This document shows, one piece after another, positions 24,216 through 42,120 of a DNA stretch of 42,282 nucleotides (positions within the stretch are counted from its first letter, which is position 1; every line of letters begins with the position of its first letter). Origin of the DNA: Magnetococcales bacterium (GTDB lineage: Bacteria; Pseudomonadota; Magnetococcia; Magnetococcales; UBA8363); the NCBI GenBank assembly GCA_015660855.1, contig JACSDG010000008.1:1-42282 (forward strand), given 5' to 3'. Position numbers and translations under genes: made by a program. The notes beneath the pieces were generated by a model, which worked only from the letters and a program-made list of their open reading frames with translations, made no database searches and was not told the origin of the DNA.

Positions 24216-27089
24216 ATGAAAGTCAGTAAGGTCTGGTTTCGTGAAAATCAATTGACGCCACAACTGCAACCCAGGGTGGATCCAGATCGGGAGGCGGAAA
24301 TTCGGGCTTTGCGTCAGGAAATATTGAAACTTTTGCAAAGGCAACGGTTTGTTTCGTTCATAAAACAGCCGAAATTTTTCTTTGACAATCAACTGCGTTG
24401 CCTGTGGTTGCTGCACGGTTTTCAAGCCCAGGGCGAAGAGGTGTTTCAATATCTTTCCCGGTTGCAGATTTATACGTTTAAAAGTTGGGAGCTGCCTGAT
24501 GTTGAAGAATTAAAATCGGTGGCACGAGAAAAACTTTTTTGCGAGCATGAAAAATTTTCGCGGGAAGCGTTGCTGTCCAGGGAACGCTCGCCCGACGGCA
24601 AAAATTTCCAGACCGTCAAGATGAGCACCGGCGAGGTTGGGTTGTCGGAGGACATGCATGTGGTCATCCCAGTGCATCGGGTGGCGCAACGGGATATTTT
24701 TTCATTCATCGTTGCCAATTCCCTGCTGCCCCATGATGTTTCCGGGGTCACCGAAAAATTGAACGAACTGTATTCCCTGACCCTCAGTGCCAGCAAAAAA
24801 CAGCAGGCCATGGTCCCCCCGCCCTCATTGCGGGCACTCAGGCAAATGTTGCTGGAGGGCGATTATATGCGTGCCCGCCTCCCGGTGCTGGAAGAATCGT
24901 ATCTGTTTGACATGGAAAAAGGGTTGTGGGAACTGTATCAACCCAAAAAGCCGGTAGGTTCGGGTTGGGTGGGGGTGGAGCTTAAACAACCGTGGGAGGC
25001 GCGCAATCCGGAGAAAGATGTCAAAGACGGGGTGGTGGCCATTGATTTTGGCACCAGTTCCACCGTGGTTGCCTGTCGGGAAAACGGTAAGATCACCTTG
25101 CTCAGGGTGGGAATGACCGATTTTTTCAGAAAACCGGTCCCCGGAGATTATCAAAATCCTACCATTTTGGAATTCATCCATCTGCCGCAACTCCTGGATG
25201 CCTGGCGGGCAGAAGCTTATCGTCCCTTGACCCGGTGGGACGATTTTCATTTTTCCCATGAGGCGTTGATCAATTTTCGCGAAAATGAGGCCAATCAGGC
25301 TATTGTGGCCAGCATGTTGACGGGGATCAAACAATGGCCGTTGCATGCCCAGGTGGGTGAGGTGTTGCGGATTACCGATCAGACGACGGGATTTGAAATG
25401 GAAGTTGCCCCGTCCCTGGCCCCCATGCCGGTTCCGGGGCAAAGAATCACGGTCGGCAAGGAGGATCCGTTCGATCCCATCGAGTTGTATGCCTACTATC
25501 TGGGCCTGTTTATCAACAGCCGCGCCAATGGTCTTTTTTTGGAATATTGCATGACTTTTCCGGTCACTTATCCCAGGGAGGTCAAAAATCGCATCCGCGC
25601 CAGTTTTGCGCGGGGATTGATGCGCAGTTTGCCGGCCAACCTGATGGATTCGGACAAAGTCCAAAGATTTGTCGTTGCCGAAGAGGCGTCGGAACCTGCC
25701 GCCTATGCCGCCTGCGCCCTGGAAGAACTGGACATCGATCCCACGGAAGATGGTGTGGCGTATGCTGTTTTTGATTTTGGTGGTGGCAGCACCGATTTTG
25801 ATTTTGGCATCTATCGCCGCCCGACCACCGAGGAGGAAGTGCAAGGGTACGAGCAGGTCATCCATCATTTTGGTGCCAGCGGCGACATGTATCTGGGCGG
25901 GGAAAACCTTGTTGCCAACGTGGCGTATCTGGTTTTCCGCGACAATCTGGAAGTGTGCCGTGAACATCGGATTCCCTTTTCCATTCCGCCGGAAGGGGAA
26001 AGATTTCCAGGTTGCGAATTGTTTCTGGACCATTCCCATGTCGCGCAGACCAATACCGCCCTTGTTATGGCGCAGGTGCGTGAATTATGGGAAAATTTTC
26101 AATGGGATGTCCTGGGTGACGATGTCCAGGATGCGGCGGACAATGTCGCGGCGGTGACCCGACGGCTTTCGGATCGTATCGGCGATGTTTTGAGCCAGGA
26201 AATCATGGATACGGGGTTTGTGTTGCGGTCCGATTTTCAAAGTTGCCATCCCAACAAACGGATGGGACAGCTTGAATTGGAATTGCTCAACCGTTCCCGT
26301 GAAAAAACGATCGTTCGTTTTCAGGTGGATCGCAATCACATCAACCATTTTTTGGTGGCGCGGGTGGGAAAAGGGGTCCATCGGTTCTTTATTGCCATGA
26401 AGCAGGCGTTCAGTTCCCGGGGGATGGACCCTGCCGAAATTCATGTGTTGCAGGCGGGTAATGCCAGCAGAGCCTTACTGGTTCAGGCCCTTTTTTCTGC
26501 TTTGACCCAGGAAAAAATGCACAAATGGGAACCTCCGCAAGGGGGATTGAAAAAAAACATGGTTTTGGAACGAATGCAAAATTCCATGGGATGCAAAAAA
26601 CTGATCATTCACCGCCCCCCCCCCGGAGATCCCGATAATCCCTACAAACCTACGGCCAAAACCGGGGTGGCTATCGGTTTGTTGAAATTGATTCCCGGCG
26701 AACCCTTTTTGGCCATTGGTCCCAATGCGGATAACCGTCAGGGGGAGGCACCCTTTACCTATTTTGTCGGTGGACTTAAGCGGGGTCGTTTTCATCCGGT
26801 GTTGGTGCAGAATGGACCTTACTCTGTGTGGACCGAACTTGGGACGCCGACGCGGGGAACGTTTGTCCTGGTTTTTTCCACCTCTCCCCAGGCGGGTTTG
26901 GGGGAATTGCGTCGCGGTTCACGGGAACTCAAGGAAAGAAGCATGACTTTCGGGCCGGGTTCGCAGGGGCGCAAACTTTTTATCCAGGCGGTGGCCCCTT
27001 CGCGGGTGGAAATTTGTTTGGCCAACACCATTGAGCAGATTGAAAAACGTCCCGAAGAAGTCATCCACAGAGAGGTGCTTTTTTTGTAG
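24216..27089 (+). CDS. Hsp70/actin-fold ATPase with about 270-residue novel N-terminal region
   Basis: This 957-aa protein has the ATPase motifs of the Hsp70/actin superfamily: phosphate-1 DFGTSSTVVA from residue 277, phosphate-2 DFGGGSTDFDFG from residue 520, and an adenosine motif AGNASRALLV near 746. No typical DnaK substrate-binding domain follows. Instead about 190 residues of strand-rich sequence (TYFVGGLKRGRFHPVLV) close the protein. The first 270 residues are helical, with no known domain. This resembles the large divergent Hsp70-like proteins sometimes found near secretion or effector loci. The ATG follows AGGAG. No signal peptide is present. The partner is unknown; a tight link to the redox genes is not evident because 313 nt with a repeat lie between. 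Confidence 0.75.
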   Translation: MKVSKVWFRENQLTPQLQPRVDPDREAEIRALRQEILKLLQRQRFVSFIKQPKFFFDNQLRCLWLLHGFQAQGEEVFQYLSRLQIYTFKSWELPDVEELKSVAREKLFCEHEKFSREALLSRERSPDGKNFQTVKMSTGEVGLSEDMHVVIPVHRVAQRDIFSFIVANSLLPHDVSGVTEKLNELYSLTLSASKKQQAMVPPPSLRALRQMLLEGDYMRARLPVLEESYLFDMEKGLWELYQPKKPVGSGWVGVELKQPWEARNPEKDVKDGVVAIDFGTSSTVVACRENGKITLLRVGMTDFFRKPVPGDYQNPTILEFIHLPQLLDAWRAEAYRPLTRWDDFHFSHEALINFRENEANQAIVASMLTGIKQWPLHAQVGEVLRITDQTTGFEMEVAPSLAPMPVPGQRITVGKEDPFDPIELYAYYLGLFINSRANGLFLEYCMTFPVTYPREVKNRIRASFARGLMRSLPANLMDSDKVQRFVVAEEASEPAAYAACALEELDIDPTEDGVAYAVFDFGGGSTDFDFGIYRRPTTEEEVQGYEQVIHHFGASGDMYLGGENLVANVAYLVFRDNLEVCREHRIPFSIPPEGERFPGCELFLDHSHVAQTNTALVMAQVRELWENFQWDVLGDDVQDAADNVAAVTRRLSDRIGDVLSQEIMDTGFVLRSDFQSCHPNKRMGQLELELLNRSREKTIVRFQVDRNHINHFLVARVGKGVHRFFIAMKQAFSSRGMDPAEIHVLQAGNASRALLVQALFSALTQEKMHKWEPPQGGLKKNMVLERMQNSMGCKKLIIHRPPPGDPDNPYKPTAKTGVAIGLLKLIPGEPFLAIGPNADNRQGEAPFTYFVGGLKRGRFHPVLVQNGPYSVWTELGTPTRGTFVLVFSTSPQAGLGELRRGSRELKERSMTFGPGSQGRKLFIQAVAPSRVEICLANTIEQIEKRPEEVIHREVLFL

Positions 27090-27402: not shown

Positions 27403-30400
27403 ATGGCAAATGGTAACCTTTCAGGGCAGCCCAAATTTCCAGGTATCAAGGCGGTCATTCATGGAAATGGCGCCGTGGCTCACGTGATGGGACATGTATG
27501 CGGTGGTGTTATCGGTTATCCCATCACCCCCTCCACGGAAATCTCTGAGATTTACGAATCCTACCGCGCCGACGGCGGTATGAACGTTTGGGGCAAGCAT
27601 CCCTTTTTCTTTGAGCCGGAAGGTGAACATTCGGCCCAGAGCGGTGCCCTCGGCGCGGCAATGACGGGGGGACTCTATACCTCGAACGCTTCTTCCAGTC
27701 AGGGTATTCTCTACGGCCTGGAATCGCACTACGTTACTGCTGGAAAGAAAGTCGGAGGGTTCGTCCTGCACGTGGCCGCACGGGTGGTTTCCAAACACTC
27801 CCTCAACGTCATGGCGGGACACGATGATGTCTACTCCATGGTCAATTCCGGCTATACCATCCTGTTTGGCAGCAATCCCCAGGAAGCCGCGGACCTGGCC
27901 GCCATCAGTTACAAGGTCAGTGCCCTGTCTCTCATTGCGGTCGCCAACGCCATGGACGGGTTTGCCACCTCCCACATGCAGAGCGAGGCCCTTCTGCCGG
28001 AACCGCAATTGCTGCAAACTTTTCTGGGCGATCCCGAAGAAAGAATTCCCTGTCCCACCCTGGCCCAGGAAATGCTTTTCGGTGCCAAGGGACGGGTTTA
28101 CCAGCTTAAGAGTTTCGTTCAAAGAAACCGCACCGACTTTGATGAAACCGCCCTGGGGCATCTCCTGGCCCATCTGGACGCCCAGGCCTCTGACATCGAA
28201 AAAGACAACGACGGTGGAACCATAGGCCGCACCCTGGAGTGGATCCCCGAACCTCTGCACGCCAAATGGGGTCGGCAATGGCGGAACGCACACCAAAAGG
28301 GGACGCGGCAACGGGTACCCGCACTGGTGGACCACCATAATCCCGGAAGCACCGGACCGGTGCAAAACCAACCCGACTTCCAGGGAGGCTGCGCCGATCA
28401 TCGAACCCACTTTGCCGGGGCCGTTCCCGGGTTCATCCGCCAGGCCATGGAGGAATATTCCCAACTGACGGGAAGGGTGTACACACCGGTGCGCACCTAT
28501 CGGAGTGAAGACGCCGATTGGGTTGTCGTCTCGATGGGGTCGGTCACCGACGATTGCGAAGCCATGGTGGATCATCTGCGTTCTCAGGGGCGAAAGGTCG
28601 GATCGGTTTCCCTCAAACAGTTCATGCCGTTTCCCGAAGCCGAAATCGTGGCGGCCCTTCAGGGAAAAAGGGCAGTGACGGTTTTGGAACGCTCCGATTC
28701 CACCATGCTTAGTGAGTTTGTCGCCAACGCCCTGTTCAAGGCGGTGCAAAACCACAGACAACCCCGGCACGATGGCATCCCCTCCCTGGCCGAAGCTCCC
28801 ACCCTGTGCACCGGCATTTTCGGTTTGGGTGGCCATGATCTGCAACCCCGACACTTGGTGGCGGCGTTTAGCAACATGGAAGAGGGAAACAACATACCTC
28901 TGTTTTATCTCGGTTCCCGCTTTTTTGAGGATTCGCAGGACCAGGAGTTGATTGATCTGCAACAAAGGCTCAGACAGGCCTACCCCGAAACCGTCAAGAT
29001 GGCCTTTGCCACCGATCCCAATCCCCATCTGCTCCCGCATGGGGCACTGCGGGTGCGCTTTCACTCGGTGGGCGGCTATGGGACCATCGCCACAGGTAAA
29101 CTTCTCACCGATATTCTTGCCGGGGTCATGGAACTTCACTCCAAATCGGCTCCTAAGTATGGCTCGGAAAAGAGTGGTGCCCCGACCAATTTTTATATCA
29201 CCCTAAGCCCCGAACCCATCAAGATCACCAATGCTGAACTGGAAGATGTGGAAATCGTCCTGTCGCCGGACCATAAGGTTTTTGAACATACCAACCCGCT
29301 GCGTGGTTTGATCGAGGGTGGGACGTTCATCATGCAATCCAACGAATCGCCGTTGGAAGTCTGGAAAGGGTTGCCGGCGACGGCACGACGCCTGATACGC
29401 GAAAGGGGGATCAATTTTTATGTGGTCGATGCCTTCAGCATCGCCAAGGAAAATGCCCCAACCCAGGATTTGCAGGTTCGGATGATGGGCATTGCCTTCA
29501 TTGGGGCCATGTGCGGCAACGTATCCCAGGTGGTTGGCAAATCCAGCGAGGAGTTGTTGCTGACCAAGATTCAAAACCAGATCCAGAAAAAATTTGGCGG
29601 CAAGGGCGACAAGGTGGTGGCCAGCAATATGTCCGTCATTAAGCGTGGCATTTTGTCCACAAGAAAGGTCGAATACAACGATCCCGCTTTTGTCGAGGCG
29701 GAGTCGGGCCTGATCGGTGGCCATCGTGGTCCGGGAGTGGCCATATCGGCCTCCATGGCCCAGCGCAACCCTTCCTCCAGTTGTTCCGGCCTGTTCGACG
29801 CCAACTATTATGCCAAGACCACCTCCGATCCCCTCAAGGCGGGGACCATCGGCGAAAGTCCGGTGTATCCTGGTCATGGACTGCATATTCCCATTGCTAC
29901 CGCCGCGTGGAAAGACAAGGGTTTGTTTCGTCTGGACGTGCCGGATTTTGTTGCCCATCTGTGTACAGGCTGCATGGAGTGCGCCGTAGCCTGTCCGGAC
30001 GCCGCCATTCCCAATACCGTCCATGAAATTCATGATCTCCTTACCACAGGGATTGCCCAGCTTGATGTCCCGCCGCAGCAACAGCATGCCCTGAGTGATC
30101 TGGTGATTCCACTGTCCAACGTGGTACGTGAAATCTACCGCAAACTCCCCTCCAAGGATCCCAAACCATTCAGTGAAGTGGTTGCCGATGCCGGGTTTCA
30201 GATGGATATCGGTATGGATTTTGGTACCAGCACCACGATCCGGGAAAACTTTTCCAAACTGGTTGATCTGTTGTCGAAATTTCAGGTGGCCAAAACCCGT
30301 CCTTTCTTCGACTCCATGGAAAAAACCATGCCGGGAAGCGGCGGGCTTTATTCGGTGGCGGTGGATCCCTGGAAATGTACCGGGTGTCTGGAATGCGTCG

Positions 30401-32436
30401 ATGTCTGTGGCCCGGGAGCTTTGGTGGAAAAAGTGCAGACTCGGGAATTGGCGCGTAAGCTGGAAGAGGGATTTACCTTCCTTTCTCGCCTCCCCAACAC
30501 CCCTTCGCGATTTTTTAGCAATGCTCTGACTCCGAGTGGTGACACCAAGCGGATGATGTTGGACCACAGAAACTATTATGCCCTGACGGGAGGACATGGG
30601 GCCTGCCGGGGTTGTGGTGAGGTGACGGCGGTTCGCCTGTTTACCGGGATGAACCGGGCACTCCACAGCGAACGTTATCGCCAACGCATCGTGCAACTGG
30701 AGCAGTTGATCCAGGCGGTCAACGAGAAGCTTTCCCAACTCGACGGAGAGCCGGTTCGCAGGCAACGTTTGCAAAACGCCCTGAGGGTCATGGAGAAAAG
30801 CCTCTACAACTTTGAAAGCGGTCCCACCGGCAACGGTCCGGCCAATGCCATTATCGCCAACGCCACCGGTTGTACCAGCGTTTACGGCTCGACCAGCCCC
30901 TTCAATCCCTATACCGATCCATGGGTCAACAGCCTGTTTCACGACACTGCGCCGGTAGCCAAGGGTATTTTTGAAGGTTTGGCCCAGGGTGTGGCCCAGG
31001 AGTACAAAGCGGTCAGGGTAGCACAGTTGGAGCTTGCGGACGGCTATGACGCGGCACAGGAAGAGTTCCTTAAATATTTTGGCTGGACCGATTTCAGCCA
31101 TGAAGAGAAGGCGTTGCTTCCCACGGTGATGACCTTGGGCGGTGACGGTTCCCAGTTTGACATCGGGTTTGGTGCCTTGTCGCGTATCCTGACCACACAG
31201 ACGCCACTCAAATGTATGGTGGTGGATACCGGAGCCTATTCCAATACCGGGGGTCAAGCTTCCACATCCAGTTTTGTGGGCCAGGATTCCGATCTGGCAC
31301 GGCATGGCCGCAGGCATCCCGGCAAGACGGAGACGCGCAAGGAATTCAGCCTGCTGGCTGCGTTTCATCCCAAGGTCTATGTCGTTCAAACGTCAGTTGG
31401 GGTGCAAAACCATTTCTTGAAGAGCATCCTGGACCTGTTGAACTATCAGGAATCGCCCGCGCTGTTGACGGTCTATACCCCCTGTCAACCGGAGCATGGC
31501 ATTGGCGACAACGCCTCGACCCGGCGGGCGCGTGAGGCGGTACAAAGCCGGATGAATCCCGTTTTTGTCCACAATCCCCTCGCGGGCGATACCCTGGCGG
31601 AACGGTTTTCCATCGAGGGCAATCCCGATCCCAGCAGCGACTGGTCGAAAACCACGATTTCCTATGAGGATGTCGAAGGGCACCCGCAGATCAAGGAGAT
31701 TCCTTTCACCCCCGCCGATTTTGCCGCCAGGGAGGGACGTTTCAAAAAACATTTCACCCCGGTGCGCAGCGATGATGAGCTTCGGGAAATATCCGAATAC
31801 ATCGCACTTTCCAGGGAAGCCAGGGAGGGGTTGACCCCCTTTATTTGGACCACCGACAAAAAGAACCATCTTGCGCGGCTGGCGGTTTCAACACAGATGG
31901 TTTCCTTGACCGACGATTGCTTGAGAAATTGGCGTTCTTTGCAAACCTTGTCCGGGTTGCAGTTGGGACAAATGGCGGAGAGTCACCGTCGGGAGATGGG
32001 ACTTTGGAAGGAACGCTACGAGCAGGCGGTCAAGGACAGGGAACAAAGCATGGATTCGATTGCCCGGGGCATGTCCGAGTTGGCCTCTGGGGCAAGGGCA
32101 TCGGCTGCGGGTATCGTCGGGGCTGCCTTGGTGGGGGCCGGTGTGTTGCCCGCCGAAGCGGGTGCGAAAGGGGAGGGCAAGGGTTCTGGAAAGCCCCTCG
32201 TGGTCATTGCCGATGCCGACATGTCCAAGTGTACCAACTGCAAAAAATGCTATCTGGATGTCAGTGCCCTGTTTGAAAACGTGACCATCATGCACGAGGG
32301 AAAATCCAAAGAGGTGAGCCGGGTGAAGCAGGGGGTGTTGAAGACGGTGGAACTGACGCCCGATCTGGTCAAAAAGGCGGAACGCGTCGCCAATGATTGT
32401 GATGCCGCAATCATTCAGTTCAACCGTCCTGCCTGA
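27403..32436 (+). CDS. nifJ: Giant pyruvate:ferredoxin (flavodoxin) oxidoreductase with extra C-terminal Fe-S domain
   Basis: This 1677-aa protein is a pyruvate:ferredoxin oxidoreductase (about 1170-1230 aa in the usual family). Domains in order: the pyruvate-binding N-terminal part (GYPITPSTEISE); a beta/transketolase-like part; the gamma domain from about residue 550 (GGYGTIATGKLL); a [4Fe-4S] site CTGCMEC at 854; a second CTGCLEC at 992, separated by an unusually long roughly 127-residue insert; and the TPP-binding part with GDGSQFDIG (1247) and TGAYSNTGGQ. An Ala/Gly-rich linker and a further cluster CTNCKKC (1610) with a late Cys follow. It should convert 2-oxoacid + CoA to acyl-CoA, CO2 and reduced ferredoxin, or the reverse in a reductive TCA cycle. 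Substrate specificity is inferred. Confidence 0.9.
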   Translation: MANGNLSGQPKFPGIKAVIHGNGAVAHVMGHVCGGVIGYPITPSTEISEIYESYRADGGMNVWGKHPFFFEPEGEHSAQSGALGAAMTGGLYTSNASSSQGILYGLESHYVTAGKKVGGFVLHVAARVVSKHSLNVMAGHDDVYSMVNSGYTILFGSNPQEAADLAAISYKVSALSLIAVANAMDGFATSHMQSEALLPEPQLLQTFLGDPEERIPCPTLAQEMLFGAKGRVYQLKSFVQRNRTDFDETALGHLLAHLDAQASDIEKDNDGGTIGRTLEWIPEPLHAKWGRQWRNAHQKGTRQRVPALVDHHNPGSTGPVQNQPDFQGGCADHRTHFAGAVPGFIRQAMEEYSQLTGRVYTPVRTYRSEDADWVVVSMGSVTDDCEAMVDHLRSQGRKVGSVSLKQFMPFPEAEIVAALQGKRAVTVLERSDSTMLSEFVANALFKAVQNHRQPRHDGIPSLAEAPTLCTGIFGLGGHDLQPRHLVAAFSNMEEGNNIPLFYLGSRFFEDSQDQELIDLQQRLRQAYPETVKMAFATDPNPHLLPHGALRVRFHSVGGYGTIATGKLLTDILAGVMELHSKSAPKYGSEKSGAPTNFYITLSPEPIKITNAELEDVEIVLSPDHKVFEHTNPLRGLIEGGTFIMQSNESPLEVWKGLPATARRLIRERGINFYVVDAFSIAKENAPTQDLQVRMMGIAFIGAMCGNVSQVVGKSSEELLLTKIQNQIQKKFGGKGDKVVASNMSVIKRGILSTRKVEYNDPAFVEAESGLIGGHRGPGVAISASMAQRNPSSSCSGLFDANYYAKTTSDPLKAGTIGESPVYPGHGLHIPIATAAWKDKGLFRLDVPDFVAHLCTGCMECAVACPDAAIPNTVHEIHDLLTTGIAQLDVPPQQQHALSDLVIPLSNVVREIYRKLPSKDPKPFSEVVADAGFQMDIGMDFGTSTTIRENFSKLVDLLSKFQVAKTRPFFDSMEKTMPGSGGLYSVAVDPWKCTGCLECVDVCGPGALVEKVQTRELARKLEEGFTFLSRLPNTPSRFFSNALTPSGDTKRMMLDHRNYYALTGGHGACRGCGEVTAVRLFTGMNRALHSERYRQRIVQLEQLIQAVNEKLSQLDGEPVRRQRLQNALRVMEKSLYNFESGPTGNGPANAIIANATGCTSVYGSTSPFNPYTDPWVNSLFHDTAPVAKGIFEGLAQGVAQEYKAVRVAQLELADGYDAAQEEFLKYFGWTDFSHEEKALLPTVMTLGGDGSQFDIGFGALSRILTTQTPLKCMVVDTGAYSNTGGQASTSSFVGQDSDLARHGRRHPGKTETRKEFSLLAAFHPKVYVVQTSVGVQNHFLKSILDLLNYQESPALLTVYTPCQPEHGIGDNASTRRAREAVQSRMNPVFVHNPLAGDTLAERFSIEGNPDPSSDWSKTTISYEDVEGHPQIKEIPFTPADFAAREGRFKKHFTPVRSDDELREISEYIALSREAREGLTPFIWTTDKKNHLARLAVSTQMVSLTDDCLRNWRSLQTLSGLQLGQMAESHRREMGLWKERYEQAVKDREQSMDSIARGMSELASGARASAAGIVGAALVGAGVLPAEAGAKGEGKGSGKPLVVIADADMSKCTNCKKCYLDVSALFENVTIMHEGKSKEVSRVKQGVLKTVELTPDLVKKAERVANDCDAAIIQFNRPA

Positions 32437-32470
32437 TGCAGACTTGAATGTGCCCATAGGAGGCCAAAGC

Positions 32471-35341
32471 ATGGATAACACCCATCATCCCATGGATTAC
32501 AATTACGATCCGTCCGATTTGGAACGTTACTATCGGGCTACCCAGGTCATCGAGGCTACCAGCCAGCACCAACAGTCGGTGGCGGAGCAGATGAAAAATC
32601 TGGAAACGAGTCATGCCGTCGAGGTATTCCAAAAGCAATTGGATCTGCTGAAGGAGCGGCTGTTCAACAACCCCGCCATGTTTCGCAACATTTTCATCGA
32701 GGAGGGGATTGATGCCATTGCCAACGAGTTTAAAAAGGAGGTCATGACTCCGGAATTTATCAAAAAGTTTTGGAGTCTGCTGTTGCCAGGGGACGCCATG
32801 AGCGTTGTCCTGATGCGTTTTGTCTGGGAGGTTCCCCTCAAGTTTAAACGCCGGTTCATTCACGGCATCGACCAGTATCTGTCGGATAGCTACCCCATGT
32901 TTAAGGGGTTGTCGCAAAATTGGCCGAGCCAGAACAATATTCCTCCGTATATTCGTCCCGCCGCCGAGCGCAACAAGGATTTTGACTTGGTAAACCAGGG
33001 CTATCTGGGCTACATGGGACTGGGGTATTCCTTCCGTGAGGTGGAGTTGTTTGTCTGGTTGGAAGTGTTGCGGGACAAGCAGTGTGATGACCGTCCGTGC
33101 GAAATTGGTATTCCCCATGACAAACATGAACCCAAGGGGGGATGTCCGGTCAAGATCCATATCCCGGAAATGTTGCGTTGCCTTGGGGAAGGCAAGTTTG
33201 AAGAGGCGTATGCGATCATACGTGATTCCAATCCTCTGCCCAATGTCACCGGGCGGGTCTGTCCCCAGGAGCATCAATGTCAGGGGGTGTGTACGCTTGC
33301 GGAAAAACCGATGGAAATCGGGCAGTTGGAATGGTATTTACCCCAAAGCCGCAAGGTTCAGGATCCCAACGCCCTGTTCAAGATCGGCCAGGATTATGTC
33401 AGCCCCTGGCAGGAGGGGAAAAAGCCTCCCGTGGCCGTGGTCGGATCGGGGCCTGCGGGAATGATCAACGCTTATCTGTTGCTCAAAGAGGGATTTCCGG
33501 TCACGGTGTTTGAAGCTTTTCACGAGTTGGGCGGGGTGCTGCGCTATGGCATCCCTGAATTTCGCCTCCCCAATGAGCTGATTGATGATGTCATCAAAAA
33601 AATCAAACAGTTGGGTGGTGAGTTTGTCACCAACTTTTTGGTGGGGAAAACGACGACACTGGCCCAGCTTAAGGAAGCGGGGTTTTGGAAAATATTTGTG
33701 GGAACGGGGGCGGGTTTGCCCAAGTTTCTCAACGTCCCTGGTGAACACCTCAACGGCGTGATGTCGGCCAATGAATTTTTGACCCGCGTCAACCTGATGC
33801 AGGCCCACAAGGAAGATTATGAGACCCCTCTTCCCGACATTGAGGGCAAGAAGATCATCGTCATCGGCGGTGGCAACACGGCCATGGACGCGGTGCGCAC
33901 GGCCAAGCGTCTGGGAGGGGATGTCACCATTGTTTATCGGCGAACTCGGGAAGAAATGCCAGTGCGGGTTGAAGAGTTGCATCACGCCCTGGAAGAAGGG
34001 ATTGCCCTGAAGGTGTTGCGCACGCCCATTGAGTTTCGTGGTGACAACCATCATTTTGTCAGGGAAGCGGTTTTGGATGTGATGACGCTGGGAGAGCCGG
34101 ATGCTTCGGGTCGGCGCAGTCCGGTTCATACGGGTCATACCGAAACCATCCAGATTGATTTGGCCATCATGGCTTTGGGAAACACCTCCAATCCCATCGT
34201 CAAAGATGCCGAACCGGGACTCAAGACCACCAAGTGGGGGTCCATTGAGGTTAAACCCAATTCCCAGGAAACATCCATCGAGAATGTGTTTAGCGGTGGT
34301 GATGCGGCGCGTGGGGGGTCTACGGCCATCAAGGCGGCGGGGGATGGTTTGAGTGCCGCGCGGGAGATCAATTTAAACCTTCCGGATGATCCGTTGGTCG
34401 TCCGCAGAATGGTTTCCAAAGCGATACACTACACCCGAATGGGACAGGCCAAGGCTACCATTCGTGAGAAAACCGTGTTGGGTGAAGGGATCGTCGAGTT
34501 TGTGGTTGAATCACCTTTGATTGCTCGCTCGGCCAGAGCGGGTCAGTTTGTTCGGGTCTTGGCATGGCAAAAAGGTGAGTTGATTCCTCTGACATTGGCC
34601 GATTGGGATGCCCGCAGGGGGACCATCACCCTGGTGGTTCAAGGATTGGGGACCAGCAGCATTGTGATCAACCGCATGGGTGTCGGGGAGAGTTTTCATG
34701 GTATTGCGGGGCCTTTGGGTTTGCCCAGCCATTTGACGCGTTATGAAAACGGTGAGACGGTTGTGTTTACGGCGGGGGGGGTTGGGTTGCCTCCGGTCTA
34801 TCCCATCATGCGGGAGCATTTGCAGATGGGTAATCATGTGACGCTGATATCAGGTTTTCGCAGCAAGGGGCACATTTTCTGGTCCAAGGAGGATGAACGG
34901 GTGGGGCGGCTTCAGGCTAAATATCCCAAAACCTTGGAAGTCATTTATACGACCAATGATGGCAGTATGGGATTCAAGGGATTTGTCACCGGGCCGTTGA
35001 TGAAAATTTTGGAAAAGGCCCGCGACGAGAATGGGCGCAAGGTGGGTGAGGTGGTGACTATTGGTCCTCCCTTGATGATGCGGGCGGTCAGTGATTTGAC
35101 GCGTCCTTTTGGGGTCCGCACCATTGCCAGTCTCAACTCCATTATGGTGGATGCTACGGGTATGTGTGGTGCCTGCATGGTGCCTGTGACCATCAACGGC
35201 AATATGGTGCGCAAGCATGCCTGCATTGATGGTCCGGAGTTGGATGCGCACATCATTGATTGGGAAAAGTTTATGCCCAGGTTTATGCAGTTTCGGGCCA
35301 AGGAACAGAAGAGTATGGAGGCACACGGTTTCAAGTTATAA
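32471..35341 (+). CDS. Single-chain Nfn-like transhydrogenase (NfnB-NfnA fusion)
   Basis: This 956-aa protein fuses the two subunits of the NADH-dependent ferredoxin:NADP+ oxidoreductase. Residues about 170-640 are GltD/NfnB-like: a Cys-rich Fe-S region (CPQEHQCQGVC), FAD motif GSGPAG at 325, NADPH motif GGGNTAMD at 466 and RRTREEMP. From about 650 it is NfnA-like, with an FNR-type flavin/NAD part and a [2Fe-2S] site (C899, C902 and C918). A roughly 170-residue N-terminal extension is unfamiliar. ATG 32471 follows AGGAGG by 7 nt, 34 nt after the oxidoreductase stop. Nfn bifurcates electrons between NADPH, ferredoxin and NAD+. The neighbour that makes or uses reduced ferredoxin supports that job. 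Confidence 0.87.
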   Translation: MDNTHHPMDYNYDPSDLERYYRATQVIEATSQHQQSVAEQMKNLETSHAVEVFQKQLDLLKERLFNNPAMFRNIFIEEGIDAIANEFKKEVMTPEFIKKFWSLLLPGDAMSVVLMRFVWEVPLKFKRRFIHGIDQYLSDSYPMFKGLSQNWPSQNNIPPYIRPAAERNKDFDLVNQGYLGYMGLGYSFREVELFVWLEVLRDKQCDDRPCEIGIPHDKHEPKGGCPVKIHIPEMLRCLGEGKFEEAYAIIRDSNPLPNVTGRVCPQEHQCQGVCTLAEKPMEIGQLEWYLPQSRKVQDPNALFKIGQDYVSPWQEGKKPPVAVVGSGPAGMINAYLLLKEGFPVTVFEAFHELGGVLRYGIPEFRLPNELIDDVIKKIKQLGGEFVTNFLVGKTTTLAQLKEAGFWKIFVGTGAGLPKFLNVPGEHLNGVMSANEFLTRVNLMQAHKEDYETPLPDIEGKKIIVIGGGNTAMDAVRTAKRLGGDVTIVYRRTREEMPVRVEELHHALEEGIALKVLRTPIEFRGDNHHFVREAVLDVMTLGEPDASGRRSPVHTGHTETIQIDLAIMALGNTSNPIVKDAEPGLKTTKWGSIEVKPNSQETSIENVFSGGDAARGGSTAIKAAGDGLSAAREINLNLPDDPLVVRRMVSKAIHYTRMGQAKATIREKTVLGEGIVEFVVESPLIARSARAGQFVRVLAWQKGELIPLTLADWDARRGTITLVVQGLGTSSIVINRMGVGESFHGIAGPLGLPSHLTRYENGETVVFTAGGVGLPPVYPIMREHLQMGNHVTLISGFRSKGHIFWSKEDERVGRLQAKYPKTLEVIYTTNDGSMGFKGFVTGPLMKILEKARDENGRKVGEVVTIGPPLMMRAVSDLTRPFGVRTIASLNSIMVDATGMCGACMVPVTINGNMVRKHACIDGPELDAHIIDWEKFMPRFMQFRAKEQKSMEAHGFKL

Positions 35342-35390
35342 CCGTCGTCCTGTTTCCGGGTGTCGAGAAAGCAAAGTTTTGTAAAAACTA

Positions 35391-35456
35391 TTGCGGGGGA
35401 CCGGGGGGGATCATCCCCCCCGGCGGGGTTTGGGGCAGCGCCCCAAGGTTTTGGTT
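35391..35456. repeat. Double-hairpin G/C-rich repeat after the Nfn fusion gene
   Basis: TTGCGGGGGACC is followed by a hairpin of CCGGGGGGGA (35401-35410) with TCCCCCCCGG (35414-35423), and a second hairpin TTGGGGC-AGC-GCCCCAA at 35430-35446. The copy at 42162-42220 has the same order. Single or diverged halves occur at 19443, 27104 and 38627. It lies between the Nfn fusion and the caspase gene and overlaps an open N-terminal extension of the latter, which I do not accept. Confidence 0.75.
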
Positions 35457-35497
35457 TTATGCCCGCAGGGCATCATGCTCGCAAAACGGATAAAATT

Positions 35498-36841
35498 ATG
35501 AAAATATCAATTATTTCGCGTGTGGTTTTAATTTTTATTTTTTTTGTTCCTTTGGAATGGGCCTCAGGGGTGGAGGATCGGGGGCTGAGTCGTGTTGCTC
35601 CCGAGAAACGGTTGGCGTTGGTCATCGGAAATAACAACTATGTCTATGCGGATAAGTTAAAAACGGCGGTCAATGATGCCTTGGCGATGAAAAATGAATT
35701 GTCGGGGTTGGGGTTTGATGTCATTTTTCGCAAAGATGCCAATCGGGAGGAAATGAACGAGGCCATTGATGAATTTTTAGGGCGACTGACTCCCGATGTT
35801 ATTGGCTTGGTTTTTTATGCCGGACATGGTGTTCAGATTAAGAGCGAAAATTTTTTGATTCCCACCGATTTGAAACAGGAACGGGAAAACACGGTCATTC
35901 ACAATGGGATCAATGTGGCCCGTCTCATGGGGCAAATAGGTGAAACCAAGGCGAAGTTCACCTTGATGATACTGGATGCTTGCCGTGACAACCCGTTCAA
36001 GGACAGTTCTGGGACGCGTGGAGGTGTGAAAACGCGGGGTTTGTCTGCCCCATCCACGAGTGCCACAGGGATCATGGTGGTTTATTCTGCGGGTGCCAAT
36101 CAGACGGCTTTGGATCGTCTGTCCGACCGGGACAACGATCCCAACGGTCTGTTTACGCGAGAACTGCTGAAAGTTATAAAAAAACCGGGATTGACGGTAC
36201 AAAATGCTGTCTATGAAATTCGAACCTCGGTTATTGAACAGGCCAAGCAGGTGAATCATACGCAAACGCCGGCGATTTACGATGAATCGGTTGGTTCTTT
36301 CTACTTTGTTGTTGATCCAAACCAGAAGGTAACGATTACCATTGAGCCGAAGACCGCCAGTTTGGGGAATGCCAATGATAAGGTTCAGACGCAGAGTCAA
36401 AACCAGGGTCAGATTTCCAAGCGGGCCTATTTTGCCGCAGTGGATTCGCAAGACACGCCCGGTCTGGTAACAACGGAAAATCGATTTTCCCTTGAAAGCG
36501 ACGGTTCAATTTTTGATCGAACTTTGAACAAAAGGTGGGTTGTTTCTGATGTGGATGGCGTATTTGAGTGGCCCGATGCTGAAAAACATGCCAGACAGAT
36601 GGGCCCCAATGTGCGTGTGCCAACGCTGGCCGAGCTGCGTTCGTTGATGAGCAATAAGAAGGCGACGGGTGAGTGGGGACGGGTTGATGAAGTTTTTTTT
36701 CCAAAAAATCAGCGGACGAACAAATATTGGACCAAAACTGCCAACTGGGGGGGAACGCAGTATTATGTGGATCTGGCGGAAGGAAGTTGGGATACGTTGT
36801 CGCCTTTGAACTCGCTGGCTGTCATTGGTATCAGGGATTGA
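35498..36841 (+). CDS. Caspase-like (peptidase C14) secreted protein with Lcl/DUF1566 C-terminus
   Basis: This 447-aa protein has a signal peptide-like N-terminus (about residues 1-25), a C14 caspase domain at about 38-260 and a DUF1566/Lcl domain near 330-447. The catalytic dyad is visible: His110 in FYAGHGVQ and Cys162 in LDACRDNP. Bacterial members act as proteases or effectors in stress and cell-death-like pathways; here export to periplasm or surface is likely. Start 35498 is preferred. An open upstream stretch of 46 codons runs through a repeat and has no ribosome-binding site. The Lcl domain follows a Gln/Asn-rich linker and keeps the WRxPTxxELRSLM-like pattern (VRVPTLAELRSLM). Confidence 0.87.
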   Translation: MKISIISRVVLIFIFFVPLEWASGVEDRGLSRVAPEKRLALVIGNNNYVYADKLKTAVNDALAMKNELSGLGFDVIFRKDANREEMNEAIDEFLGRLTPDVIGLVFYAGHGVQIKSENFLIPTDLKQERENTVIHNGINVARLMGQIGETKAKFTLMILDACRDNPFKDSSGTRGGVKTRGLSAPSTSATGIMVVYSAGANQTALDRLSDRDNDPNGLFTRELLKVIKKPGLTVQNAVYEIRTSVIEQAKQVNHTQTPAIYDESVGSFYFVVDPNQKVTITIEPKTASLGNANDKVQTQSQNQGQISKRAYFAAVDSQDTPGLVTTENRFSLESDGSIFDRTLNKRWVVSDVDGVFEWPDAEKHARQMGPNVRVPTLAELRSLMSNKKATGEWGRVDEVFFPKNQRTNKYWTKTANWGGTQYYVDLAEGSWDTLSPLNSLAVIGIRD

Positions 36842-38740: not shown

Positions 38741-40171
38741 ATGAAAGAATCAAAGCATAAGCGCGTTGTGAGAGAACTGTTTGATCATTTGGCAGCGCAA
38801 CGAAAAAATTGGTTGCGGCGAAATGCTTTTTTTTACGAGGACGATACTCGCTATCTGAGTTTTTTGATACCCAAGGGCAAACGGGTTCTGGAGATCGGGT
38901 GCGGTGTAGGACAACTGCTCGATTCCGTAGGACCAGCTTATGGTGTTGGTGTTGATGTCAGTGCGAATATGGTCTCCATCGCGCAAAGGGATTTTCCGCA
39001 CTTGACCTTCAAATGCGCAGACATTGAAGATCCACAAACATTGGCCAACCTTGGAGGTCCTTTTGATTTTATTATTATTTCTGATGTGATTGGCCATTTG
39101 GAAGACGTGGAAGAAGTTTTAACCAATCTAAATTCTTTATGCAATTCAGAAACGCGGATTATTATCACATTCTTTAATCAATATTGGGAACCTATATTAA
39201 AACTTGGGGCAAAAATGGGCATGTGCATGCCCTCGACCACCCAAAACTGGCTGACCTCTGAACAGATCATGAGTTTTCTCTTCTTGGCCGATTTGGAGCT
39301 TGTACGCCAGGAATGGCGTCAGATACTTCCCATACGTCTCTTTGGTTTTGGAAAAGTGCTCAACCGATATGTGGCTACTCTGCCGATTTTACGCAGTCTG
39401 TGTTTGCGAAAAATATTTATCGCCAGGTCGGTTCCAGAGTGCAAACAAAAAGAGCTTTCAACCACTATCGTTATTCCATGCCGCAACGAATTTGGTAACA
39501 TTGAAAACGTCGTTCGGCGCATCCCGGATTTTTGCAAAGATCTGGAAATCATCTTTGTCGAAGGTAATAGCCAGGATGAGACTTTTGCAGAGATTCAGCG
39601 TGTCATTGCCGCTTATCCAGAGCGCGACATCAAAATATTCAAACAGACCGGCAAGGATAAGGGGGATGCGGTACGCTTGGGATTTCAACAGGCCCGTGGA
39701 GAGCTTTTGATGATTCTCGATGCCGATCTCTCCGTACCTCCCGAGGATTTGCCAAAGTTTTACAAGGCCATGGTGAAAAATAAGGGGGAGTTTATTAACG
39801 GATCACGGTTGATTTATCCAATGGAAAACGAGGCCATGCGTACCTTGAATTTATGGGCCAACATGGTTTTTTCTTATTTATTCACTTGGCTGCTCAACCA
39901 GAGGGTTTCTGATACGCTGTGTGGTACCAAAGTATTATCGAAACGTAGCTATGAACAAATTGCCAAGAATCGCCATTATTTCGGTGACTTCGATCCATTT
40001 GGGGATTTTGATTTGCTTTTTGGTGCTGCCAAATCGAGCTTGAAGATCATTGAGGTACCTATCCGTTATCGTGCTCGCACTTATGGAGAAACCCAGATTT
40101 CGCGTTTTCGGCACGGAATTTTACTTTTTCGCATGGTTGTCTTCGCGTTCAAAAAACTCAAAGCTCTATAG
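38741..40171 (+). CDS. Fusion of SAM-dependent methyltransferase and GT2 glycosyltransferase
   Basis: In this 476-aa protein, residues 1-225 are a class I methyltransferase (EIGCGVGQLL at 51-60, GVGVDVS, ISDVIGHL). From residue 241 it is a GT2 family transferase (TTIVIPCRNEFGNI, FVEGNSQDETF, DADLS at 327-331). The GT2 half resembles dolichol-phosphate-mannose/polyprenyl sugar transferases. Such fusions build modified sugars on lipid carriers. ATG 38741 lacks a strong site; translation may be coupled to the upstream gene. It converges on the radical SAM gene across a 203-bp palindrome. Confidence 0.85.
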   Translation: MKESKHKRVVRELFDHLAAQRKNWLRRNAFFYEDDTRYLSFLIPKGKRVLEIGCGVGQLLDSVGPAYGVGVDVSANMVSIAQRDFPHLTFKCADIEDPQTLANLGGPFDFIIISDVIGHLEDVEEVLTNLNSLCNSETRIIITFFNQYWEPILKLGAKMGMCMPSTTQNWLTSEQIMSFLFLADLELVRQEWRQILPIRLFGFGKVLNRYVATLPILRSLCLRKIFIARSVPECKQKELSTTIVIPCRNEFGNIENVVRRIPDFCKDLEIIFVEGNSQDETFAEIQRVIAAYPERDIKIFKQTGKDKGDAVRLGFQQARGELLMILDADLSVPPEDLPKFYKAMVKNKGEFINGSRLIYPMENEAMRTLNLWANMVFSYLFTWLLNQRVSDTLCGTKVLSKRSYEQIAKNRHYFGDFDPFGDFDLLFGAAKSSLKIIEVPIRYRARTYGETQISRFRHGILLFRMVVFAFKKLKAL

Positions 40172-40433: not shown

Positions 40434-41957
40434 TTACTTCTTGGGTTGACGATTCAACGCCTTGCGCCATTTGTTGCGATTAAGAAAACGATAACGAAAC
40501 CATTTAGCATATTTTGTCTGTTCTTCACCCGTGGTGATGGCGATCCAAAGGATTTTCATGACCCGAAATGGACGTAAAATAAACGAAAGAATATAAAAGT
40601 TTACAAACATCCAGAGCATCGTATGGTACAAACTCCGCGAGGAAATCTCCTGCGCATAAGAGGGGGCATTGGCGGTATAAAAATCCATGGGTGAAATAAA
40701 AAATTCGTCGTTGAGTTTTATTTGGTTTATCTCCCTGAATATCAGTGAACCCGGATAGGGGACAAATTTGGTGACTGTCACGTCGTGCACGCCAATCCAG
40801 GCAAGCCGACGAATCAAGGTCATGGTATCGCCCAAAGTTTTTTTTGTCTCGTTGGGAAAACCTATGACAAAAAAACAGGAAACCTTGAATCCATGTTGCA
40901 AAGAAACCCGAATCGCACGCTCCATACTGGTCAAATCAACCTGTTTTTGCACCGATTTCAGTAATTCAACCGATCCCGATTCCGGTGCGAAAGACAAGAG
41001 ACGACAACCGGATTGATACAAGAGACGTATGACCTCAACATCAAACACCTCCGATCGGGTACCCGTTGGCATTTGCCAGGTAATATTCAAGCGTCTGTCA
41101 ATGATCTCTCGACACAAATGAATAACCCAGCTCCGCTTGACTATGGCAGTAAGATCCTGCGAATCAAAATTGCGAACATTGTATTTTTTAATATACATCG
41201 CCATTTCATCAACGATACGCACCGGATCACGGGGTACATACCGTGTCGTCCACATGCCAGGACTGGAGCAAAAACTGCAACGGTAGGGACAACCTCTGGT
41301 CATCATAATGGGCATGGAACGCCCCAGATTAATACCGTTGGTCTGGGCACGGTCTATGTATTCACCAATGGGAATGGCGTCCCAATCCGGTAAGGGCAAA
41401 GCATCAATATTGCGGTTCCTCAAGGACAGCCCCGTAGACACCATCCGGCCATCCCGCAAAAAAGCAATACCCCCAATTGAAAGAAAATCTTGTTTATTTT
41501 CATGGGCTGTAAGCAAATTTAAAAAGGTTTCCTCGCCCTCTCCCATCACGACAATATCCACTGGAGAGGTCGTCAAAGTATGCTCTGCAAGGGCGGTAAC
41601 ATGTTCGCCCCCCACCACAATGAGTACCTTGGGAAACCTTTTCCGGATGTCTTGAATCAAATGGCGCGTCAAGGGCCAAAGACTGCTGAAGGTGCAGGTC
41701 ACGCCAATGACATCGGTTTCGTCAGGAATCCTCTGGACAATGTGCTCGAAAGGGAGTCCTTGCAACAGAAGATCGTCGCGACCCGGATAGGGCCCGACAA
41801 CATCCAACCCCAGACCGGTGGCATCAATCACAGTGCAAGGACGACCCGATTGTTTGACCACTGCGGCAATATAGGCCAACCCCAAAGGAGGATTTGGGGC
41901 ATGAATCTGTAACCCGGCCAAGCTTTTGATACCAGGTGGGTTGATTAAGGTAATCAT
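40434..41957 (-). CDS. B12-binding-domain radical SAM enzyme
   Basis: The protein has 507 aa when started at ATG 41957 (CAGGAC upstream). A longer open frame begins at 42068 but has no good site and a less typical N-terminus. The first 150 residues are a B12-binding-like domain (ITLINPPG, GLAYIAAVVKQSG, VVGGEHVTALAEHT, MGEGEE). A radical SAM core follows with C223, C227 and C230 (GCPYRCSFC). The C-terminal helical part contains a hydrophobic stretch. Relatives modify carbons of lipids, glycans or antibiotics by methylation or rearrangement. The specific substrate is unknown, but the surface-glycan neighbours favour a lipid or sugar. The stop codon lies within the repeat motif at 40420-40437. 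Confidence 0.85.
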   Translation of the reverse strand: MITLINPPGIKSLAGLQIHAPNPPLGLAYIAAVVKQSGRPCTVIDATGLGLDVVGPYPGRDDLLLQGLPFEHIVQRIPDETDVIGVTCTFSSLWPLTRHLIQDIRKRFPKVLIVVGGEHVTALAEHTLTTSPVDIVVMGEGEETFLNLLTAHENKQDFLSIGGIAFLRDGRMVSTGLSLRNRNIDALPLPDWDAIPIGEYIDRAQTNGINLGRSMPIMMTRGCPYRCSFCSSPGMWTTRYVPRDPVRIVDEMAMYIKKYNVRNFDSQDLTAIVKRSWVIHLCREIIDRRLNITWQMPTGTRSEVFDVEVIRLLYQSGCRLLSFAPESGSVELLKSVQKQVDLTSMERAIRVSLQHGFKVSCFFVIGFPNETKKTLGDTMTLIRRLAWIGVHDVTVTKFVPYPGSLIFREINQIKLNDEFFISPMDFYTANAPSYAQEISSRSLYHTMLWMFVNFYILSFILRPFRVMKILWIAITTGEEQTKYAKWFRYRFLNRNKWRKALNRQPKK

Positions 41958-42120
41958 ATTTCTTGTCCTGGCTGTTTGCTTTTTCAGTGGATGGCAGGGA
42001 CTACAATCAAAAGGCATTATTCCGAATCCCGTCTTGGAGACTGTGGAAACATTATCGATAAATGTCAATAGGCACTATACTTTACCTTTGACTTTCTTCC
42101 ATAATGCCCTCACATTGAAG

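Follow-up and report, generated by a model that had tools for sequence, protein, structure and literature searches.

Background

Pyruvate:ferredoxin oxidoreductase (POR, or PFOR) has a central place in anaerobic carbon metabolism and in the fixation of CO2, and is usually assumed to share its electrons through free ferredoxin. In the Euglena-type pyruvate:NADP+ oxidoreductase (PNO), a POR is coupled to a pyridine-nucleotide-reducing flavoprotein, within one chain that includes a cytochrome-P450-reductase-like flavodoxin module. Phenylglyoxylate:NAD+ oxidoreductase (Pad) is a multi-subunit 2-oxoacid oxidoreductase with an NAD-reducing flavoprotein. Here, we describe a long POR that carries its own C-terminal ferredoxin and is encoded next to a predicted NADH-dependent ferredoxin:NADP+ oxidoreductase (Nfn) in which both subunits are fused. 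The window is a stretch of 42,282 nucleotides from a Magnetococcales contig; features of the two genes are listed in Table 1.

Table 1. Features of the long POR gene and the adjacent Nfn gene (positions in the window).
Feature	Position	Strand	Basis
A-type POR with tethered ferredoxin, 1677 aa	27403..32436	+	single uninterrupted ORF; Pfam POR_N, PFOR_II, POR; PDB PFOR matches
Domain I (POR_N), catalytic T42, E75, R127	27403..28047	+	Pfam, PFOR alignment
Insert 218–302, A-type-specific	28054..28308	+	alignment
PFOR_II core domain, residues 371–453	28513..28761	+	Pfam
POR gamma-type domain, residues 557–750	29071..29652	+	Pfam
[4Fe-4S] motif 1: C854, C857, C860, C864	29962..29994	+	invariant in A and B types
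Insert 890–973, predicted helical, common to A and B types	30070..30321	+	alignment, model
[4Fe-4S] motif 2: C992, C995, C998, C1002	30376..30408	+	invariant
Proximal [4Fe-4S] ligands C1068, C1071, C1157, C1361, spread over the span	30604..31485	+	alignment
Insert 1087–1147, predicted helical hairpin, common to A and B types	30661..30843	+	alignment, model
TPP-binding domain VI core, residues 1241–1388, with N1281	31123..31566	+	alignment with solved PFORs
Long C-terminal helix, residues 1519–1563	31957..32091	+	model
Gly/Ala-rich linker, residues ~1564–1602, pLDDT mostly <50	32092..32208	+	model, sequence
Single-cluster ferredoxin, residues 1606–1672; ligands C1610, C1613, C1616, C1666	32218..32418	+	Fer4_15, profile match
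AGGAGG, ribosome-binding-like site of the Nfn gene	32458..32463	+	sequence reading
Nfn fusion, 956 aa; NfnL 222–637, NfnS 663–951	32471..35341	+	NF009415, 5jca
N-terminal domain of the Nfn fusion, residues ~1–200, candidate docking domain	32471..33070	+	
Nfn cluster domain, invariant Cys 205, 210, 225, 264, 270, 274	33083..33292	+	alignment

An elongated POR with an intact catalytic core

A preliminary description made from the DNA alone had called the enzyme an oversized POR, about 450 residues longer than usual. This holds: the ORF is intact and encodes 503 residues more than Escherichia coli YdbK (1174 aa) and ~445 more than the PFOR of D. africanus (1231–1232 aa). A phmmer search matched the crystallized PFORs over all domains (Moorella, E = 1e-84; D. 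africanus, E = 1.8e-72), and the domain order of the POR superfamily is kept, with POR_N followed by PFOR_II, POR gamma and the TPP domain. Residues T42, E75, R127 and N1281 are the counterparts of Thr31, Glu64, Arg114 and Asn996 in the D. africanus enzyme; all 30 aligned relatives have them unchanged. Against TIGR02176 (pyruv_ox_red, the PFOR equivalog), the long POR scores 392.3 bits, well under the curated cut-off of 911.35; it is therefore a PFOR relative outside that curated family. While this low score is consistent with a substrate other than pyruvate, use of another 2-oxoacid is very improbable, given that all relatives conserve the four catalytic residues of PFOR (Thr, Glu, Arg and Asn), and that the best solved relatives are PFORs, with other 2-oxoacid enzymes scoring weaker.

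The gene was found in all eight genomes of the genus (84–88% identity), and its ORF is unbroken in the eight species. With the reading frame intact across the genus and the cysteines invariant, the long POR is not a product of chance or of assembly error. A structure model of residues 478–1677 had a mean pLDDT of 71.6 with 34 sequences. Foldseek searches with this model found PFORs, with low TM-scores that are due to poor domain placement in a model of a part-length protein.

The extra length had been assigned to two places, one of them an insert of roughly 127 residues between two [4Fe-4S] motifs. Alignment with YdbK shows four large additions instead (218–302, 890–973, 1087–1147 and 1526–1677), together with several smaller ones of ~20–40 residues; the first and third of the large additions had been missed. 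There are exactly 127 residues between C864 and C992, but the net insert is only 84 residues (890–973), because the canonical enzyme also has a spacer at this position. The first addition, at least for residues 230–301, is absent from YdbK, from a sister family of PORs referred to here as B-type, and from a split POR of Magnetococcales. The model places confident helices over much of 875–957 and a helical hairpin at ~1071–1138.

A fourth iron-sulfur site in a C-terminal ferredoxin

The C-terminal cluster site had been counted as the third in the protein. Canonical PFOR already has 12 cysteines that bind three clusters, and the four ligands of the proximal cluster are present and invariant in the long POR, making the C-terminal site the fourth. 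The 12 canonical and 4 C-terminal cysteines are invariant among 17 A-type and 15 B-type proteins aligned, barring two A-type rows, one of which is a copy without the C-terminus and the other a gene with an apparent frameshift in the linker. A replacement by Ser of the last proximal ligand (C1071 in D. africanus) was considered and ruled out by alignment with solved PFORs, in which this residue corresponds to the conserved C1361.

The proposal of a C-terminal helix-linker-ferredoxin unit was borne out. A predicted helix (1519–1563) is followed by a linker modelled with low confidence and then by elements in the order beta-alpha-beta-beta-alpha-beta; the motif CTNCKKC begins at residue 1610, as described. 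The unit has what is expected of a single-cluster [4Fe-4S] ferredoxin, namely CxxCxxC, a remote Cys and a family profile. It matches Fer4_15/Fer4_13, with Fer4_15 found in 11 of 15 members, and the profile of the A-type ferredoxins matches Fd1 of Hydrogenobacter thermophilus (E = 2e-4), a ferredoxin that works with the 2-oxoacid oxidoreductases of its host. When the C-terminal 88 residues were modelled alone, the same order of elements was obtained with low-to-moderate confidence (mean pLDDT 62.7), and the top three Foldseek matches were ferredoxins, at non-significant E-values of 0.36–0.47. Support from sequence for the ferredoxin assignment is thus stronger than support from the structure model. 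We infer that a fourth cluster would assemble in this domain.

An alternative explanation is that the ferredoxin-like tail is structural or protective, and that POR and Nfn communicate by free ferredoxin. The tail occupies a position comparable to that of the C-terminal extension of D. africanus PFOR, an extension with a different role, and is predicted to be mobile. This explanation is improbable, since the four ligands stay invariant across both A- and B-type proteins despite low identity elsewhere in the domain, and since the tail resembles functional ferredoxins.

Pairing of the A-type POR with an Nfn fusion

The neighboring gene had been described as Nfn, and the assignment stands: both modules of Nfn (5jca) are matched by the encoded protein (L, E = 5e-111; S, E = 2e-69). 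The gene starts 35 bases after the POR stop codon; several Rhodocyclaceae have the two genes overlapping by ~4 bases. The protein scores 1637 bits against NF009415 (PRK12779), above the cut-off of 1519. NCBIfam names this family “putative bifunctional glutamate synthase subunit beta/2-polyprenylphenol hydroxylase”, a name that is likely misleading, since the context of this member is that of an Nfn-type partner of a POR. The protein is predicted to be an Nfn by its sequence, and may carry out flavin-based electron bifurcation. No relatives of its ~200-residue N-terminal domain were found in Pfam or the PDB. In all members that cover the region, the first half of the cluster domain has three cysteines (C205, C210 and C225), as compared with four in GltD. 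The extra N-terminal domain and the missing cysteine could reflect a changed ferredoxin-docking side.

Beyond the genus, neither the A-type POR nor the Nfn fusion was found in 398 genomes of the phylum, both being confined to the same eight genomes; the other Magnetococcales families sampled had no A-type POR. Relatives at 57–62% identity were found in 10 of 151 Rhodocyclaceae-family genomes, and in two alphaproteobacterial genomes, a Rhizomicrobium metagenome-assembled genome (MAG) and a Hyphomicrobiales MAG. A class-wide sample added one further relative (G1275), broken at a contig end, and no relatives of the long POR were found in viral contigs.

Wherever a ferredoxin-bearing A-type gene had enough contig after it, Nfn lay directly downstream (19 of 19 loci). 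Eight of these loci are in the genus and 11 outside it; in one of the 11, the contig ends after 261 residues of Nfn. In the 151-genome sample, Nfn was found in nine of the ten genomes with the POR and in no others, the tenth Nfn being cut by a contig end; the hypergeometric probability of this co-occurrence is 1e-13, with kinship ignored. In G398, the POR is at a contig end and an Nfn fusion starts at the edge of a different contig.

The gene upstream of the POR (24216–27089, + strand) encodes a 957-aa protein with actin/Hsp70-like ATPase motifs (AIDFGTSSTVV and FDFGGGSTDFD) and no Pfam match. It was considered as part of the unit and rejected, as relatives whose contigs extend upstream of the POR do not conserve it there. 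The Nfn gene is followed immediately by a gene for a caspase-like protein (Peptidase_C14) that also has a weak Lcl_C domain (35360–36841, +). Other genes in the window encode a methyltransferase-glycosyltransferase fusion (38741–40171, +) and a B12-binding radical SAM protein (40434–42068, −).

A natural contrast is provided by the Hyphomicrobiales MAG (G399), which has two A-type genes. One (C116/C209) is accompanied by ferredoxin and Nfn; its two parts are on separate contigs, and are treated as a single gene solely because these contigs meet at residues 1301–1308. The other (L078) stops after 1522 aa, shortly past a conserved W..LQ.LAG segment, with no ferredoxin or Nfn within 8 kb downstream, where a convergent peptide deformylase gene comes first. 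L078 falls inside the A clade in the tree, so ferredoxin loss is the simplest reading. Since G399 is a MAG, its two A-type copies might come from different organisms.

A sister family in rnf operons

B-type PORs are ~36% identical to A-type PORs, are 1630–1700 aa long and have their own C-terminal single-cluster ferredoxin. Of the 151 Rhodocyclaceae-family genomes, 27 have one; others turned up elsewhere in the order and class, in a single alphaproteobacterial fragment, and on replicons of Gemmatirosa and Persicobacter; a plasmid search returned two B-type relatives. The two types share the inserts at 890–973 and 1087–1147 as well as the C-terminal ferredoxin, but B-type proteins lack the 230–301 insert, and they are encoded with rnf genes, unlike the A-type with its Nfn.

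Almost all B-type loci examined (41 of 42) are in rnf operons, with the typical order rnfB-por-rnfC-rnfD-rnfG-rnfE-rnfA. Complete operons with a B-type POR and ferredoxin inside (L090:6490-16820 and L091:3242-13731; also L092–L106, L112–L124 and L168) come from Rhodocyclaceae and from further members of the same order. The RnfB of L091 bears a Fer4_13 ferredoxin domain at its own C-terminus. The one exception (G1116, L167:1-1936) encodes a ferredoxin-tailed B-type POR; the 13 kb downstream of it contain no rnf gene, and its upstream region lies off the contig. One genome (G550) has por-nfn and rnfB-por-rnfC... side by side. A second rnf-like cluster, with its role unknown, has been reported in Dechloromonas aromatica (PMC2907700); if of B type, this cluster would gain a testable function.

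In a tree of the core domains, A- and B-type proteins are joined apart from the split POR of Magnetococcales, with an ultrafast bootstrap value of 92 and SH-aLRT of 76; since this support is modest and the outgroup branch is long, the tree is moderate evidence for a sister relation. The B-type C-terminus matches D. africanus ferredoxin I (E = 1.8e-8), and A- and B-type ferredoxin profiles match each other weakly (probability 27%). The B-type ferredoxin may come from a different lineage than the A-type ferredoxin or may have diverged strongly; a single origin is neither proved nor excluded.

By the preliminary description, its proposal that the extra cluster may serve Nfn would be refuted if the extension were common in unrelated genomes with no Nfn close by. 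No ferredoxin-bearing A-type locus with enough contig is of this kind, but the B-type loci do combine a ferredoxin with rnf genes instead. Rather than being tied to Nfn as such, the C-terminal extension therefore accompanies a dedicated partner for electrons.

Proposed wiring of the POR to a dedicated partner

These data suggest that the tether wires A-type PORs to Nfn and B-type PORs to Rnf, and not to a shared ferredoxin pool. In the mechanism that we consider probable, the tethered ferredoxin would pass electrons between POR and its dedicated partner, so that the pair at this locus would work as a pyruvate:NAD(P) oxidoreductase independent of free ferredoxin. The usual soluble partner, a single-cluster ferredoxin, would be fused to the POR C-terminus by a helix and a flexible linker, and electrons would run from TPP to the proximal cluster, through the two ferredoxin-type clusters to the tethered ferredoxin cluster, and on to the Nfn cluster domain. 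POR and Nfn would then be one two-protein unit with no draw on the free ferredoxin pool, catalyzing pyruvate + CoA + NADH + 2 NADP+ <-> acetyl-CoA + CO2 + NAD+ + 2 NADPH, or the reverse. The complex, the direct passage of electrons and this stoichiometry are predictions from the genes.

Evidence in support of the tethered mechanism comes from the conserved catalytic and ligand residues, the A-type/Nfn pairing in the sampled genomes, and the parallel pairing of B-type PORs with Rnf. Direct transfer from the POR ferredoxin to Nfn appears well motivated on these grounds, while the co-occurrence and gene neighborhood would also follow from a purely functional link via free ferredoxin. A more general form of the model, to which we give an even chance, is that ferredoxin-tethered PORs are a modular family, in which much the same catalytic body is wired by a partner-matched ferredoxin to either soluble, bifurcating Nfn or ion-pumping Rnf. 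Pyruvate chemistry would then be coupled to NADPH balance or to membrane potential without a free ferredoxin pool.

A tethered ferredoxin could instead be promiscuous, acting as a mobile outlet whose raised local concentration serves any acceptor, with Nfn merely a frequent user. The long flexible linker in the model is compatible with such an arrangement, as is the finding that the ferredoxins appended to A- and B-type proteins have different relatives. A promiscuous outlet is unlikely, given the strict one-to-one pairing with Nfn (A-type) or rnf (B-type), and given that the ferredoxin-less A-type copy is also Nfn-less.

The direction of the dedicated POR-Nfn reaction is a separate question. 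With a midpoint potential of about −500 mV for pyruvate and potentials of −280 to −370 mV for pyridine nucleotides in cells, the combined reaction with the Nfn stoichiometry would be nearly reversible, which leaves the genes uninformative about direction; we lean slightly toward pyruvate oxidation. Run reductively, the same wiring would have Nfn bifurcate electrons from NADPH, with the tethered ferredoxin driving the conversion of acetyl-CoA and CO2 to pyruvate. The enzyme would then act as a pyruvate synthase, serving either CO2 fixation or the assimilation of acetate, a reading that differs from the favored one in direction only. This is a reasonable possibility, though short of an even one. 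PORs are reversible, Nfn works near equilibrium, and members of Magnetococcia have been reported to be autotrophs that use the reductive TCA cycle. On the other hand, a separate split POR in Magnetococcales relatives could fill the reductive role, and ferredoxin-bearing members of the family are also found in Rhodocyclaceae, a group with many heterotrophs.

The split POR is a different enzyme, encoded by two adjacent ORFs in this genome and in other Magnetococcales families. An in-frame stop follows the conserved ...KGKDVNAFFI end of the first part (L002:853-4584, on G000:C61; also L014, L016, L017 and L020). Because the stop codons differ between families, the split is a fixed gene fission and not an error. 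The source genome also has an RnfC homologue and other glutamate-synthase-like proteins; the presence of these proteins and of another POR makes the POR-Nfn system accessory in this genome.

Comparison with known systems

If a POR is hard-wired to Nfn or Rnf, the fate and stoichiometry of its electrons would be defined. Such an enzyme would offer structural biologists a compact object in which to study electron confurcation from pyruvate, and would be a useful component where NADPH-linked pyruvate or acetyl-CoA chemistry is to be engineered. The NF009415 family, now named after glutamate synthase and a hydroxylase, would gain a testable function. No description of a POR-Nfn pair or of a POR in an rnf operon was found in the open-licence literature, which is weak evidence of absence.

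The homodimeric PFORs of D. africanus, M. thermoacetica and E. coli (YdbK) share with the long POR the catalytic domains in a single chain, the catalytic residues and three [4Fe-4S] clusters. The long POR differs in its four large additions, including the C-terminal ferredoxin, and in falling under the TIGR02176 cut-off. As in NfnAB/NfnI, there are NfnL and NfnS modules, encoded here by the gene next to the POR; the differences are that L and S are fused in one chain, with ~200 aa of extra N-terminal domain and one Cys fewer than GltD, and that the fusion is paired with a POR in every locus seen. PNO and Pad would be alike in how they work. In contrast to PNO, the long POR has no flavodoxin or P450-reductase module recognizable in Pfam, and in contrast to the multi-subunit Pad, to whose cut-offs it scores far below, it pairs a single-chain POR with a single-chain Nfn.
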